In this document: positions 3,764 to 35,358 of the stretch, one piece after another
Layout of the letters: every line of letters starts with the position of its first letter
Position numbering within the stretch: the first letter of the stretch is position 1
IMG/VR virus record: IMGVR_UViG_3300025323_000018
Location: 1 to 35,358 of that record
Length of the DNA stretch: 35,358 bases
Source: a virus
Strand: one strand, 5' to 3'
Notes under the pieces: model-generated
What the model was told of the DNA's origin: nothing
Seen by the model: the letters and a program-made list of their open reading frames with translations, nothing else
The model's database searches: none
Translations under genes and position numbers: made by a program

Positions 3764-4203
3764 CGTTCACGATTTACGGAAACCAAGACGATCCGACTGG
3801 CAACCCGATTCCGAAATTGCGGAAAACCCTTCGGTCGCAGTGGACGCCCGAAGCGCAAAGATACGGCGCATGGAAAAGCTGGGTGCAGAAAAGCTGGCTC
3901 GGATGCTTAAACCAGCGCGGAGAATACAAGGCGATCGACATCGCAAACGTCGCAATCATGCACCACGGCAAGCCGATCATTCTCCTCAACAATCAGAAGG
4001 CGCGGATGGACATTCGGATTTTTTGGAAAAACGGGGCGCACGGCGATCCCGAGAACGTGTTCGGAAGCATTGCCGACGCGCTGTTTGAAAACGACAAGAA
4101 CCTCGACGGCTCGTTTGAAAGCGGGCGAGCGCCAGATGGCAGGGGTCGGGTCGAGGCAAAAATAATCATTAACCAAGAAAAACAATGGAAAACAGAAAAT
4201 TAA
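3754..4203 (+). CDS. Possible RusA-like Holliday junction resolvase
   Basis: A 149-residue protein. It starts MEIAFTIYGNQDDPTGNPIPKLR, like the opening strand of RusA proteins. It later has HGDPENVFGSIADALFEND, which resembles the RusA signature in which acidic residues near DxDN, and a D further along, hold the metal, followed by a final strand (RVEAKIII). The size fits. RusA resolves four-way junctions during phage replication and recombination, which suits a place beside the initiator and a Sak4-like ATPase. The classic DxDN is changed to DPEN, so activity is uncertain. Confidence 0.55.
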   Translation: MEIAFTIYGNQDDPTGNPIPKLRKTLRSQWTPEAQRYGAWKSWVQKSWLGCLNQRGEYKAIDIANVAIMHHGKPIILLNNQKARMDIRIFWKNGAHGDPENVFGSIADALFENDKNLDGSFESGRAPDGRGRVEAKIIINQEKQWKTEN

Positions 4204-11687: not shown

Positions 11688-14600
11688 ATGGCGATTAACT
11701 TTATCAGCGGCTACGAATCGGGCGACACCCGCGAATGGTCGGGAGTGGGAGCAGGAACGCCCTCCTTCGACACAGCGATTGTCCGATCGGGAGCTCGCTC
11801 GCTGAAGTGCGCCATGGCAGCGAGCACAGCAGCTCACTTCCTGTTCTTTGACTACAACGACGCAAAAAAAAGCGGAAACGGTGGAGCAGCGGTAGCGAAC
11901 AGCTACGGAAAATTCATGTTCCGCTGGTCTCACAACGGAGCATCGGCATACGCGCCGAATGAATACAAAATCCTCGTGCTTGAGCAAGCCGACCTCGGCA
12001 ATATCATGTCGATTCGGTTTTATCAAGACAGCGCGACGACGGGACACCTTGAGCTTTGGTACGAACTGGACGGGCAAACCGCCGTTCAAGTCGGAGCAGA
12101 CGTCTCGGTCGCCGAGGATGCGTGGGTTCGGATCGAGTGGAAATGCGCGATAAGCGCCACGGTCGGCATTCTTGAAATGAAAGTCGACGGAGGCAATACG
12201 CAGACGGGAACGTCCCTCAACACGGGAACGGAAAACGTGAACTCGGTAAACCTCGGAGGCATTACGAACGCAAACAGCCAGCCGATCGACTTTTACTTCG
12301 ACGACGTCGCGGTTCGGGACGACCAATACCACGGCGACAGCAAGGTGATAAACCTTCTGCCGAATGCGCTCGGAGATGCAAACCAATTCGATACCTTGAA
12401 CGGGAGCGGGACGAACCGCTGGAACTACGTCGACGACATTCCAACGAACGAAACCAACAACATAGTTCAGGCAGGCACTGCGGTGGCAAAGGAAATGTTC
12501 GGGCTTGAGGATTCAACCCCGATAGGGGCAAGCGATACCATCAATGCCATCGCGTTTTGGATTTTATATTTTCTGTCGTCCGCGGGATCGACGCCGACGC
12601 AAAACCTCGTAGGAAAGGAAAGCTCGCAGTTTACGTGGCATGCAACCCCGCCGACTGGAAAATTTCTTTATTCGAGGACATACGCGGCGCGACCAGTAAG
12701 CGGAGGAGCATGGACGAAAGCGAGCATTGATTCGCTTCAGGTCGGCGCAGACAAAACAACCACGGGCGGAAAAGACATCACAATATACGACTTGGGAATC
12801 ATGGCGGATTACACCCCAGCTTCGGGGCAGAACTTCACGCAGACGCTGACGGAAGCGGTCGTGGTTGCGGAAGCGCTCGCGCGGCAACCGCAAAAGGCGC
12901 AGAACGAGGCAGTAATGCTCGCCGACTCAATAGCAAAATCGACAACCAAGGGAGCATTCGCGGAAACGATAACGATTATTGACACGCTGCTTCGCCAAGC
13001 TCAAAAAGCATTGAGCGAAGCGCTGACGATTGTCGACCCGACGGTGATTGTAAAAATTACTGCAAAAATTCTTTCCGAGGCGGTAACGATTGCGGACTCG
13101 ATAATTCGGGACGCAGCGAAAGCGCTCGGGGAGATTGTGGCAATTGCTGACAGCATAGCGAAACAAACGCTGCGCGCATTCAGCGAAGCGCTCGCGATTG
13201 CGGACGCAATCAACAAGCAAGCGCAGAAGGTGCTCGCGGAAATCGTCGCGGTTATTGACCCGACGACAGCCCTCAAGATCACGGCAAAGATTTTCACTGA
13301 AGCGGTAATTATTGCCGACGCGTTCGCGCAGCGAATCACCGCAAAGGTGCTCGAGGAGACGGCGATTATAGCGGACGCGATCGCCAAGCAAGGATTGAAA
13401 AACTTCAGCGAGATCGTGGCGCTTGCAGACAGCTTGACTCGGCAGGCAACGAAAGTCCTGACGGACGTCGCTGCGATTGCGGACACGATCGCGCGCCAAA
13501 CCGTTCGAACATTCGAGGAGGCGGTCGCAATCGCAGATACGGCACTGAAACAAGTTCAAAAGAGTTTCGCGGAAGCGCTCGTACTCGCAGATTCGCTGAC
13601 GGCGAAAATTATAGGCAAGACGCTCGGCGAAGCATTGGCAATCGCCGACAGCTTGACCCGAAGCATGACGCGGATATTCGCCGAAGCGGTAGCGATCGCG
13701 GATACCGCAACAAACCAAGCGCAGAAAATTTTTGCGGAGGCAATAGCGGTCATTGATTCAATCGTTAACGTCAAGCAGTACAACCGCACGCTCGAGGAAG
13801 CAATTATTCTCGCCGACACGATCGCAAAAAGCATCGGGCGCGCGCTTGCAACAGAGGCAATAGCAATCGCCGACGCCGCGGAAAAACAGACGGCAAAGGC
13901 ATTCGCCGAGATCGCCGCAATCGCAGACGCAATGGAACGCCAAACGATAAAGATTTTTGCGGAAGCAATCGCGCTGGCGGACACCCTGCTCAAGCAGGGA
14001 ACGAAAGTCCTCGCAGAAGCCGTAGCGCTCATTGATTCAGTGGCGGCAAAAATTACTGCCAAAGTCCTCGAGGAAGCCGTGGCAATTGCAGATGCAATAA
14101 GCCGACAGGCAACAAAAATCTTCGCAGACATTGTGGCAATTGCCGATACCCTAACCCGACAGCCAATCAAGGCGCTCGCGGAAACGCTCGCAATCGTAGA
14201 CGGCATAACGGCAAAAATCACGGCAAAGATTTTCGAGGAAACCGCCGTGATTGCAGATTCGATCGCAATGCAGGGACTGAAAACCCTTGCCGAAGCAATC
14301 GCCATCGCCGATTCGCTGGCAAGGCAGGCAACAAAACTCCTCGCCGAAGCAATAGCGGTAGCCGATTCAATCGCGCGGAGCATAACGCGCGTGATTGCGG
14401 AAGCGGTGACAATTGCCGACTCAACTGCAAAGCAGGCAGGCAAAACATTCGCGGAGGCGTTGGCGCTTGCGGACGCCGCAATCCGCATGGCGGGCAAAGC
14501 CGTCGGCGAAACCATCGCCATCGCCGATTTATTCGCCCGAACGATTACTGCATCAAGGATATTCGAGGAAGCCGTACTGATTGCAGACAGCATCGCAAAA

Positions 14601-15287
14601 CAAGCGGGCAAAGCAATTAATGAAGCAATCACGATAGCGGACAGCATCGCGCGAAACGCAATCAAGGTCTTCGCTGAAGCCGTCGCAATTGCAGACAGCA
14701 TCATTCGTCAGGCGGCGAAAACAATTGCCGAAACGATATCAGCCATCGACAGCGTTGCTACACAGCTCACGGGACTGCAATTTAAAACCCTCACTGAAGC
14801 AATTTCAATCGCAGACGCCATAAACCGCACCGCAACAAAAGTGATTTCCGAGATCGTGGCAATCGCCGACAGCATCGCAAGAACTGCGAGCCGAACTATC
14901 CAAGAAACAATCACGCTCGCCGAATCACTCACGAAGCAAACAGGCAAAGCGATCGCGGAAGCAATAACGCTCATTGAAACCCTCGCTTCAAGAATTACCG
15001 CAAAAGCATTGACCGAAATCGTAGCGGTGGCGGACGCAATCAATCGTTCGATAACGAGAACCTTTCAAGAAGCAATCGGCATCATCGACTCGGCGTTCGC
15101 CGAATTTGTGAAGCCGATCGGAGAATTCATAATCGCGGGCATTTACGGGCTCGCAAAAGCGATCAGAGGAGAAGCCGCATCGTTCGCCGTCGTAGCGACA
15201 AGCACAAGCTGGACGGCAAAGGTCGAATCGCGCGACTTGAAACTCGCCACGGGCATCAGGAGCTTCACCGTAAAACTAAAGCAATAA
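11688..15287 (+). CDS. Giant repeat protein, probable fibre or decoration
   Basis: A 1199-residue protein. Residues 1-385 are beta-rich and resemble a LamG/concanavalin-like carbohydrate-binding fold (SGYESGDTREWSG, RSGARSLKCAM, HLELWYELDG, PIDFYFDDVAVRDDQ). Residues 386-1142 hold about 41 copies of an 18-residue repeat with consensus close to FAEAVAIADSIARQATK. The last 57 residues are a beta domain (ATSTSWTAKVES to FTVKLKQ). Similar ESLTLSDS-type repeats occur in some phage and archaeal surface proteins. The likely role is a long fibre or head/tail appendage with a binding head. Its place between portal and protease is unusual for a fibre. Confidence 0.75.
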   Translation: MAINFISGYESGDTREWSGVGAGTPSFDTAIVRSGARSLKCAMAASTAAHFLFFDYNDAKKSGNGGAAVANSYGKFMFRWSHNGASAYAPNEYKILVLEQADLGNIMSIRFYQDSATTGHLELWYELDGQTAVQVGADVSVAEDAWVRIEWKCAISATVGILEMKVDGGNTQTGTSLNTGTENVNSVNLGGITNANSQPIDFYFDDVAVRDDQYHGDSKVINLLPNALGDANQFDTLNGSGTNRWNYVDDIPTNETNNIVQAGTAVAKEMFGLEDSTPIGASDTINAIAFWILYFLSSAGSTPTQNLVGKESSQFTWHATPPTGKFLYSRTYAARPVSGGAWTKASIDSLQVGADKTTTGGKDITIYDLGIMADYTPASGQNFTQTLTEAVVVAEALARQPQKAQNEAVMLADSIAKSTTKGAFAETITIIDTLLRQAQKALSEALTIVDPTVIVKITAKILSEAVTIADSIIRDAAKALGEIVAIADSIAKQTLRAFSEALAIADAINKQAQKVLAEIVAVIDPTTALKITAKIFTEAVIIADAFAQRITAKVLEETAIIADAIAKQGLKNFSEIVALADSLTRQATKVLTDVAAIADTIARQTVRTFEEAVAIADTALKQVQKSFAEALVLADSLTAKIIGKTLGEALAIADSLTRSMTRIFAEAVAIADTATNQAQKIFAEAIAVIDSIVNVKQYNRTLEEAIILADTIAKSIGRALATEAIAIADAAEKQTAKAFAEIAAIADAMERQTIKIFAEAIALADTLLKQGTKVLAEAVALIDSVAAKITAKVLEEAVAIADAISRQATKIFADIVAIADTLTRQPIKALAETLAIVDGITAKITAKIFEETAVIADSIAMQGLKTLAEAIAIADSLARQATKLLAEAIAVADSIARSITRVIAEAVTIADSTAKQAGKTFAEALALADAAIRMAGKAVGETIAIADLFARTITASRIFEEAVLIADSIAKQAGKAINEAITIADSIARNAIKVFAEAVAIADSIIRQAAKTIAETISAIDSVATQLTGLQFKTLTEAISIADAINRTATKVISEIVAIADSIARTASRTIQETITLAESLTKQTGKAIAEAITLIETLASRITAKALTEIVAVADAINRSITRTFQEAIGIIDSAFAEFVKPIGEFIIAGIYGLAKAIRGEAASFAVVATSTSWTAKVESRDLKLATGIRSFTVKLKQ
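12843..15113 (+). repeat. 41 tandem protein repeats of about 54 bp
   Basis: The units are mostly exactly 18 codons, a few 19-22, each with an acidic E at position 4, a hydrophobic run, then D and a basic end (K or R at position 18). The DNA copies have drifted so that no two adjacent units are identical, pointing to old duplication rather than recent slippage. Longer units (KITAK variants) recur every few repeats (4, 8, 9, 22, 25), hinting at duplication of multi-unit blocks. Confidence 0.9.
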
Positions 15288-33646: not shown

Positions 33647-33675
33647 TTGACACCCCTCAATCAGTATGCGATTAT
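33647..33675 (+). promoter_or_regulatory. Promoter upstream of the integrase leader
   Basis: A perfect TTGACA 33647-33652, a 17-base spacer and GATTAT 33670-33675. The start would be near 33682. Confidence 0.6.
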
Positions 33676-33713
33676 AGAGGAAACTTAATAGAAATTTCTG
33701 TCGCCCGAAAGGG

Positions 33714-33740
33714 TCGAGTCCCGTTAGTCACGGGGCTTGA
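33714..33740 (+). other. 10-bp stem-loop in integrase leader
   Basis: 33714-33723 pairs with 33731-33740 (10 bp, two G-U; loop TTAGTCA). A small hairpin with a GAAA loop lies just before it (33704-33713). It overlaps the -35 of the next promoter. Confidence 0.5.
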
Positions 33741-33765
33741 GGCAAACGACGGGAGGTGCTATAGT
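33737..33765 (+). promoter_or_regulatory. Second promoter, start of the leader RNA
   Basis: TTGAGG 33737-33742, a 17-base spacer and TATAGT 33760-33765. The start is expected near 33772, at the first base of the first hairpin. Confidence 0.65.
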
Positions 33766-33771
33766 GGTAAT

Positions 33772-33875
33772 GACAGACGACGGTCTGTCCCGCCACGTGG
33801 CGGCAACGCCCATGTTCGCAAGAACATGGAAACGGCACTAAACCCCCGATTTGCCTCGGCGGGTTTTGTGCTTTT
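33772..33875 (+). ncRNA. Candidate structured RNA before the integrase
   Basis: Four consecutive folds fill about 100 bases. GACAGAC/GTCTGTC (33772-33778 with 33783-33789, loop GACG); the palindrome CCGCCACGTGGCGG (33790-33803); CCATGTTC/GAACATGG (33810-33817 with 33822-33829, loop GCAA, a GNRA tetraloop); and a terminator stem. No open frame of note. It could be a free RNA, an antiterminator (like the put RNAs of HK022), or an attenuator of integrase. Confidence 0.6.
33840..33875 (+). terminator. Intrinsic terminator directly before integrase
   Basis: 33840-33849 pairs with 33856-33866 (10 bp, one bulged C), then TTTTGTGCTTTT. The integrase ATG 33876 begins at the last T. Confidence 0.7.
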
Positions 33876-34781
33876 ATGGAGTTTAAAGAGGCAATCGAAA
33901 AATTCAAAAATTGGAGACAATTCAAAGTAAAGAAGCAAACCGTCAGAGGGTATGATCGGGAGCTTCGCACTTTCTGCCTCTTTTTGCGCAACCCTCAAAT
34001 TGAGTACATTACCCTTGACCAAGTAATGGAGTACCTCAACGGGATGGCGGAGCTTGGATGGGATCGGAACAGCTTCGTCGGCAAATGCATGGCGCTCCGA
34101 AAGTTTTTTGAATTTTACCGACTGCAAGGATACCAAGTGATCGACGAAAACCTGATACCAATACCGAGCAAAGAATACAAAATCCCGCGCATCGCCGACG
34201 AGGATGGTTATAAAAAACTCCTCACTGCGATACCAGCAAAGACCAACGATCCAAGGCACATCCGCAACTTGGCAATCATAAACCTATTGTGGGATACGGG
34301 AGCGCGAAACGGCGAAGTTTTATCGCTCGACATAGGAGACCTGCAAATGGACAAAAGGAGGGCAATAATTCGAACGGAGAAATCCAAGGGCAGGCGTCCC
34401 ATTCGAGAGATTTTCTGGACGGCTGACACTCACGGAAATTTAGTCCAGTGGCTTAAGAAGCGCGAGCATTTGAAAAAGACGATGGAATTTAGAGACGCCG
34501 ACGCGCTGTTCCCGTCAATCGGAAGCCAAAAAGCTGGGCAGAGGTTAAGCATAAAAGGCGTCGGCGAGATGCTTCGACACTACTCGAAAAAAGCAAAGAT
34601 ACCCCACATGAACGCGCACAGCTTTCGCCACCACATGGGGCACGACATTATTAAAAAGGGCGGATCGACGGCAGACGTAATGAACATACTCGGGCACGCA
34701 TCGATTCAAAGCACCACGGTCTACACGATGATGACAGACAACGAACTCGAGAAGCGCTACCGCAGCTTCAAGGGGAATTGA
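33876..34781 (+). CDS. int: Tyrosine recombinase (phage integrase)
   Basis: A 301-residue recombinase. The N-terminal SAM-like core-binding domain spans about 1-90. The catalytic domain has Arg 144 (DTGARNGEVL), a Lys in RTEKSKGRR, His 248 and Arg 251 (NAHSFRHHMGH), His 274 (LGHASI) and Tyr 283 (TTVYT). It carries out site-specific integration and excision between attP and attB. It begins right after a terminator, so its expression probably depends on read-through or on initiation at the terminator end. No attachment core could be identified by eye. Confidence 0.93.
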   Translation: MEFKEAIEKFKNWRQFKVKKQTVRGYDRELRTFCLFLRNPQIEYITLDQVMEYLNGMAELGWDRNSFVGKCMALRKFFEFYRLQGYQVIDENLIPIPSKEYKIPRIADEDGYKKLLTAIPAKTNDPRHIRNLAIINLLWDTGARNGEVLSLDIGDLQMDKRRAIIRTEKSKGRRPIREIFWTADTHGNLVQWLKKREHLKKTMEFRDADALFPSIGSQKAGQRLSIKGVGEMLRHYSKKAKIPHMNAHSFRHHMGHDIIKKGGSTADVMNILGHASIQSTTVYTMMTDNELEKRYRSFKGN

Positions 34782-35076: not shown

Positions 35077-35100
35077 CTCCGTTGGGAGTATAGCGATAAT
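35073..35100 (+). promoter_or_regulatory. Promoter sharing operator with the HTH gene
   Basis: TTGACT 35073-35078, a 16-base spacer and GATAAT 35095-35100. ACTCC-GTTG-GGAGT is a 5-bp inverted repeat over the -35 edge. The same block, one C shorter, is in the promoter at 34811. Confidence 0.6.
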
Positions 35101-35238
35101 GGTGGTGTAGCACATTAAAAAGCCAAAGCCGAACGTTCGCCCGCAAGGAGCGAGGGATAGAGGGGCAAGACCCCCAAGACGCAAGTCGTCCCCCGCTTTT
35201 CGCGGACGAGCAACTCACGGCGAGCTATAAAAACCACC
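35101..35238 (+). other. Folded leader before the Nudix gene
   Basis: Gap with no gene. GGTGGT 35101-35106 is complementary to ACCACC near the 3' end of the gap (about 35231-35238). Inside lie the palindrome CGAACGTTCG, a GGGG/CCCC hairpin, GAC-GCAA-GTC, and CCGC/GCGG. It may be the leader of the next gene or a separate RNA. The first few bases are just upstream of the expected transcript start. Confidence 0.4.
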
Positions 35239-35268
35239 ACGGCACACCCAAGAAATATAAAAAGTATC

Positions 35269-35358
35269 ATGGAAAATAAAGAAAACAACAGAATACGCAT
35301 TAAGGTCATGTGCGTGATTACCGATGGGGATAGGGTGCTTGCGGGCCATGGACGCGAC
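35269..35358 (+). CDS. Start of a Nudix-like hydrolase, cut by window end
   Basis: The 30 visible residues (MENKENNRIRIKVMCVITDG, then DRVLAGHGRD) match the opening strand and turn of Nudix hydrolases, which cleave nucleoside diphosphate-linked substrates. The Nudix box would lie beyond the window. Probably a host gene right of the prophage. The start ATG 35269 has no clear Shine-Dalgarno sequence. Confidence 0.55.
   Translation, partial: MENKENNRIRIKVMCVITDGDRVLAGHGRD

Follow-up and report, generated by a model that had tools for sequence, protein, structure and literature searches.

What does the densely paired DNA directly in front of a phage integrase gene encode, and does it govern integration? 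The question is posed by a virus record of IMG/VR that we analyzed over its full length of 35,358 bases (the window), in which a first-pass annotation had described positions 33737-33875 as an apparent RNA gene with three possible roles: a cis-acting antiterminator like the put RNAs of phage HK022, an attenuator controlling integration, or a free small RNA. Comparison with related prophages lends support to the second and third roles and none to the first; attenuator and free small RNA appear from these comparisons to be aspects of a single device. We consider it probable that the element is a two-state leader (attenuator) of the integrase gene, int, and also the source of a trans-acting small RNA (sRNA) from an internal promoter.

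Prophage and host

The record encodes phage portal, protease, tail and integrase proteins, together with an amidase recognized by eye. The att cores are the repeats 89-111 and 35250-35272, in direct orientation, with the letters AAGAAATWTAARAAGTRTCATGG (AAGAAATTTAAGAAGTGTCATGG / AAGAAATATAAAAAGTATCATGG), and because they lie near both ends, the record is an essentially complete prophage flanked by short stretches of host DNA. Four related loci (L004, L006, L007 and L008) have sequence in common up to the same att core and then diverge; the prophage boundary lies approximately 430 bp downstream of int. The int gene itself (33876-34781, plus strand) encodes a tyrosine recombinase (PF00589, E = 9.5e-27; phrog_1, E = 1.4e-30) and is the proposed target of the element. 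Since relatives of this integrase are present in Doudnabacteria and Komeilibacteria genomes, the phage probably infects one of the Patescibacteria. These bacteria are tiny and mostly uncultured, and to our knowledge, the choice between integration and lysis in their phages is largely unexplored.

Elsewhere in the window, a second RNA-like stretch lies between int and attR (35090-35240), with a promoter-like TTGACT-16-GATAAT, a closing stem GGTGGTG/ACCACCAC and the palindrome CGAACGTTCG; a similar layout with a different sequence occurs in L004. Close to the left prophage end is a large GC-rich hairpin (240-330) whose 5' arm, GCACAAGCCCCCCGCTGA, is similar to an int-leader hairpin arm. An open reading frame at 11688-15287 (1199 residues) consists mostly of repeats like AEAVAIADSIAKQ and probably encodes a repetitive virion or fibre protein.

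Architecture of the integrase leader

The structured leader occupies 33698-33871, upstream of the int ATG, and all of its features described here, including both promoter patterns and the complementary strands Y and Y', are on the int (plus) strand. The interval annotated at first pass is real but too short: conserved structure begins at 33698, a better promoter lies at 33647-33675, and the annotation had overlooked its upstream half as well as the complementarity of the loop. This upstream promoter, P1 (TTGACA-17-GATTAT), was located by a promoter scan, has a predicted start near 33683, and has a better pattern in the window than the internal promoter, P2, from which it lies 90 nt further upstream. 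An A/U-rich leader, AACTTAATAG (33682-33691), resembles by eye the AATTTAATAG of many homologs. Stem a, assigned by hand and showing covariation, then pairs CUGUCG (33698-33703) with CGACGG (33747-33752) and encloses two hairpins, h1 (CCC-GAAA-GGG, 33704-33713) and h2 (CCCGU/ACGGG, 33720-33734). Directly adjoining its 3' strand is Y', GAGGCAAA (33739-33746), which complements the loop of the last hairpin and overlaps the -35 hexamer of P2. A further strand, X' (33755-33759), complements the 5' arm of the last hairpin, weakly so in the window.

P2 (TTGAGG-17-TATAGT, 33737-33765) is present as first annotated, with a TG that makes it an extended -10 promoter pattern, and its predicted start near 33772 does coincide with the first hairpin, GACAGAC/GUCUGUC (33772-33789), which would form the 5' end of a predicted sRNA of approximately 100 nt. 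Next come a perfectly palindromic hairpin with a self-complementary loop, CCGCCACGTGGCGG (33790-33803), and the hairpin CCATGTTC-GCAA-GAACATGG (33810-33829), whose flanks ACGCC / GGAAACGGCAC recur in several homologs; an ACGCC...GGAACG motif is present in this middle part of the element. The last hairpin (33835-33871) ends 4 nt before the int ATG and displays the loop Y, TTTGCCTC (33850-33857). It is terminator-like and near int, in agreement with the terminator first proposed, but it is imperfect, with a bulge and only four U directly 3' of the stem, and a strict terminator scan of the window did not list it. The promoter scan listed no antisense promoter near the element. The statement that no frame is open needs correction, as the int frame is open for 102 nt upstream of the ATG, yet without a conserved peptide.

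The segment folds to -61.7 kcal/mol, compared with -44.0 kcal/mol for shuffled sequence (z = -4.38; 0 of 200 shuffles as low). All four of the hairpins first described are present, but the minimum-energy fold of 33737-33875 differs from that simple series by including a long-range helix, in which GAGGCAAA at 33739-33746 pairs with the loop TTTGCCTC at 33850-33857. This pairing of Y' with the last-hairpin loop was the first sign of alternative states.

Conservation of the pairing

Searches with integrase sequences identified two close viral relatives and four genome loci, three of them close; three new divergent loci in 380 genomes; 16 viral loci; and hits in 10 of 384 genomes. A wider integrase profile brought the viral loci to 25 in all and added three more genomes, and single-protein scans with the L018 and L020 integrases returned no viral relatives. 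The element is kept in approximately 30 related prophages, drawn from Patescibacteria genomes and IMG/VR contigs, with a common layout of P1, stem a, Y', X', a middle part that varies, and finally a hairpin that has Y as its loop and complements Y'. Stem a encloses one or two hairpins (zero in L025 and L053). The last hairpin lies 1-18 nt before the int ATG in most loci, and Y lies 13-29 nt ahead of it in nearly all; this spacing leaves no space for a promoter between hairpin and gene, and int transcription must cross the last hairpin in nearly all loci.

The layout has exceptions. The element sits farther upstream of int in L042, L045 and L050, a clear U run is missing after the last hairpin in L020 and L030, and several loci have a weak or displaced P2. 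Reading the upstream DNA of L022, L052 and L033, whose integrases are related, revealed no recognizable element, and none was obvious upstream of the second integrases of G1072 and G891 (L153 and L154). The element seems to have been lost or replaced in L022 and L052. Upstream of int in these two loci are different hairpins and a repeated CCGTGGGG.

Sequence turnover between the phages is almost complete, with pairing preserved. The first-pass annotation had suggested looking in homologous prophages for non-compensating changes that break the stems; the opposite emerged, and the changes are massively compensatory. Across the junction alignment, 13 of 15 pairs carry two-sided changes and 84.4% of cells are paired; the corresponding counts are 4/4 pairs with 96% of cells paired for h1 and 5/5 pairs for h2. 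All five junction measures exceed every shuffle (0/500), and slid controls pair at most 48%.

The long-range complementarity is likewise retained. With the loop taken mechanically, an exact upstream complement of at least 8 nt to the last-hairpin loop was found in 14 of 23 loci, compared with 3% for shuffled upstream sequence and 5% for swapped partners. When Y and Y' were chosen by complementarity and stems assigned by hand, Y complements the int-leader Y' in approximately 28 loci, and with these hand-assigned segments Y' adjoins stem a with no gap in 24 of 29. For X' and its partner X, own pairs average -9.9 kcal/mol versus -7.2 kcal/mol for swapped pairs (mean rank 0.24, 29 loci). Over the same number of loci, the mean P1 score is approximately 10 standard errors above mononucleotide-shuffled upstream regions, and that of P2 approximately 11 above mononucleotide shuffles.

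Palindromes of at least 12 nt occur in the middles of 11 of 18 loci (0.54 expected), and the loops of the palindromic hairpins are self-complementary four-base sequences (ACGU, AAUU, GAUC, AGCU and UGCA). Such hairpins could serve as RNA dimers or as a protein operator. On the idea of an operator for a dimeric repressor, we searched the window for a second copy of the palindrome with up to two mismatches, and did not find one.

A predicted two-state switch

RNAfold predicts a mutually exclusive pair of folds in all loci. For P1 transcripts cut at the end of Y, the Y'Y helix has a mean probability of 0.96 and stem a is open; for full-length transcripts, the last hairpin reaches 0.61 and Y'Y 0.36; for transcripts that begin downstream of the stem, like those from P2, the hairpin reaches 0.97. 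Because RNAfold ignores pseudoknots and Y and Y' were chosen by complementarity, these probabilities speak to the consistency of the model and are no proof of it.

In the mechanism we propose, P1 transcripts would include Y' and X', and when the polymerase is just past Y, these strands would base-pair with Y and the last hairpin's 5' arm, respectively, forming an antiterminator. The terminator-like hairpin would then be absent (when formed, it covers the start region of int as well), and int would be expressed. Alternatively, stem a would close and hold Y' in the junction, the last hairpin would form, and int would be off. Transcripts from P2 begin after Y' and would consequently always fold the last hairpin, ending as an RNA of approximately 100 nt that displays Y. 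By pairing with the Y' of a new P1 transcript, this RNA would block the antiterminator and keep int off; in some phages, an early gene has another Y' at its start codon to which the RNA could also bind.

A second copy at an early gene

As an independent test, we ran a covariance model of 51 junction positions, built from junctions before one integrase family, on the loci, on 286 and 397 genomes (some of them shared), and on 36 records or genomes. All strong matches fell either before an integrase or at the start of a single small early gene. Among the former were unprompted matches before a distant integrase family in L148 and L150, each with a matching Y'/Y pair (GACGCGAA/TTCGCGTC, 8/8, and TATGCTAG/CTAGCATC, 7/8).

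The second junction lies on the same strand as the int copy and 34-43 kb upstream of it in G901, G1012 and G1115. The start codon of the early gene falls within one strand of its stem, CAATG; the encoded protein carries the motif RRYGIPA.ILEGKWL or a near variant, and no Pfam match was found for it. In each of these three phages, the early Y' is identical to the Y' of its own int leader (GATGCTAC in G901 and G1012, GATGCTAA in G1115), while the inner hairpins are different. Within 1.5 kb of these early copies there is no Y. Junction copies over the early start codon were mapped in L088 (1501-1551), L077 (1501-1550, minus strand), L087, L093 and the remnant L149, and one is present at the same gene start in a neighboring prophage within L031. 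The L031 (G1115) contig apparently holds two adjacent prophages of this type, each with an early junction copy and with different Y' codes. In G690, a prophage remnant without a related integrase, the early copy GATGCAAC predicts the loop GTTGCATC. In the L004 phage, a 9-nt stretch (GATGCGAC / GGATGCGAC) that matches the phage's own Y precedes a member of this early gene family; the full junction is missing there, and this copy, too, has no separate Y close by.

These second Y' copies are the main reason why we infer that Y acts in trans. The evidence for such action comes from a small number of phages with only a handful of differences in code, and the early target is known from only four virus records or genomes, plus the neighboring prophage and the remnant L149. 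The early RRYGIPA gene is absent from the window, as it is from most phages examined. A second Y' target was not found in the window, where GAGGCAAA appears again at 4153, 4413 and 5167 (five occurrences in total versus 2.3 expected, which is within the range of chance). A 17-nt perfect complement of the last-hairpin loop and 3' arm at 1930-1946 was not accepted as a target, as it is coding sequence. That stretch is the 3' end of a Sak4-like gene, and the match is possibly a coding coincidence.

Alternative explanations

A leader that acts in cis only is an unlikely reading, though one to be taken seriously. It would attenuate int or hide its start in answer to transcription speed, temperature or a junction-binding protein; the trans-acting RNA would not exist, and P2 would be incidental. 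All of the structural evidence fits this account, as do the 1-18 nt between hairpin and int in most loci and the weakness of P2 in some. It leaves unexplained the conserved P2 pattern and the early-gene copies of Y', which lack a local Y and match the Y of their own phage. The recurrence of the junction at the early gene, whose start codon is inside stem a, would also suit an RNA operator recognized by a phage protein. Such a protein (the early protein regulating itself is one example) would contact the junction and Y' of each leader, and Y/Y' pairing would serve only to build the int leader structure. We find this improbable, since Y' is nearly unconstrained across phages and covaries with Y, unlike a motif read by a protein, and the early gene is missing from most phages examined, the window included.

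That the inverted repeats adjoin a tyrosine recombinase gene raises the prospect of a DNA-level device, with the repeats as integrase binding or attachment sites; this is very improbable, given that the stem letters vary freely while pairing is preserved and that the att cores are at 89-111 and 35250-35272, with the boundary beyond the end of int where the four relatives diverge. An attachment site within the element was rejected on the same ground, the att core being downstream of int instead. We also discarded an invertible promoter between inverted repeats, since the partner strand is in every case found in a different hairpin's loop and stem a shows covariation of its own. Scarcely credible, in our judgment, is a processive antiterminator acting on RNA polymerase like HK022 put, the analogy drawn at first pass. 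The put RNA binds the zinc-binding domain of the RNA polymerase beta' subunit. Like put, the element would be a phage leader RNA affecting termination, with hairpins beside an early-type promoter, and some phages here have a second copy; put, however, is an RNA of approximately 70 nt that consists of two stem-loops, lies just downstream of an early promoter and acts on the polymerase for distant terminators (PMC9378689), whereas the present architecture comprises stem a with two inner hairpins, the Y' strand, more hairpins and, where int starts, a terminator-like end hairpin whose loop takes part in long-range pairing within the element.

Known RNA classes were also considered. At the gathering score, no Rfam family was found in the window or four relatives, and relaxed thresholds on the element likewise gave none (the best by score, THF-II, has a chance-level E of 7.9). 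A disguised tRNA or tmRNA, prompted by the GGGGTTCGACAG stretch in L004, was rejected, with none found by ARAGORN. A ligand-binding riboswitch was dropped because a conserved core for a small molecule is absent; Y' is almost free to change, and the inner hairpins number from zero to two. A non-exhaustive search of the literature on Patescibacteria phages found no such element described.

Implications

The proposed attenuator and sRNA source may belong to something wider. Tentatively, and with somewhat less than even confidence, we suggest a new phage RNA family in Patescibacteria: an int-leader sRNA with a loop code of approximately 8 nt that would silence, in trans, int and an early gene within one phage, the code setting immunity groups and the palindromic hairpin dimerizing the RNA in many members. 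The loop code diverges between related phages and would for that reason define such groups, in the way that the copy-control RNAs of plasmids determine incompatibility. The occurrence of the same code at int and at the early gene in a few related phages points to RNA-based control of lysogeny in Patescibacteria phages. As the pairing code can be read, it yields testable predictions about shared control between phages, about the early genes targeted, and about the base-pair substitutions expected to alter integrase expression in a reporter.

Comparison with known systems

Two candidate structured RNAs, Lacto-int and STAXI, have been associated with integrase or XerDC genes (PMC2864571). Their hosts are different (Lactobacillales and Enterobacteriales, respectively); STAXI consists of tandem pseudoknots, and its Rfam family has no match here. 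Attenuation of a leader by a small RNA, as proposed here, is known from the plasmids pIP501 and pT181, with RNAIII of pIP501 causing premature termination in the repR leader mRNA (PMC4981023). Those RNAs are antisense and come from the opposite strand, whereas the RNA predicted here lies on the same strand as its target and itself carries the terminator-like hairpin.

By analogy, the logic of the proposed device is closest to that of the P4 CI and P1 C4 RNAs, and the element is a member of neither. C4 of P1 and P7 (RF01695) is an immunity RNA with loops of variable sequence that determine which target is recognized and occlude a ribosome-binding site (PMC5320573). It is processed and has three stem-loops, a fold different from the one described here, and the main target here would be the integrase leader. 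The RF01695 covariance model matched neither the window nor the four relatives, nor was it among the relaxed matches of the element; the C4-type trait of a loop complementary to phage mRNA near a translation start was found in G901, G1012 and G1115 only, and not in the window. CI is a small RNA of phage P4 that pairs with two complementary sites to terminate early transcription in the lysogen (PMC4825925), and, as we propose for the present RNA, it lies on the same strand as its targets. CI is processed from a longer transcript, and its target sites, located up- and downstream, control replication genes; the RNA predicted here lies directly before int with its own promoter pattern, and a second site, if any, is approximately 34-48 kb away. 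To the two complementary sites of CI would correspond the int-leader Y' of approximately 28 loci and the early Y' of four phages, the latter having no equivalent in the window. If its trans role is true, the element would be an integrase-centered addition to the few known RNA-based lysogeny systems that P4 CI and P1 C4 represent.
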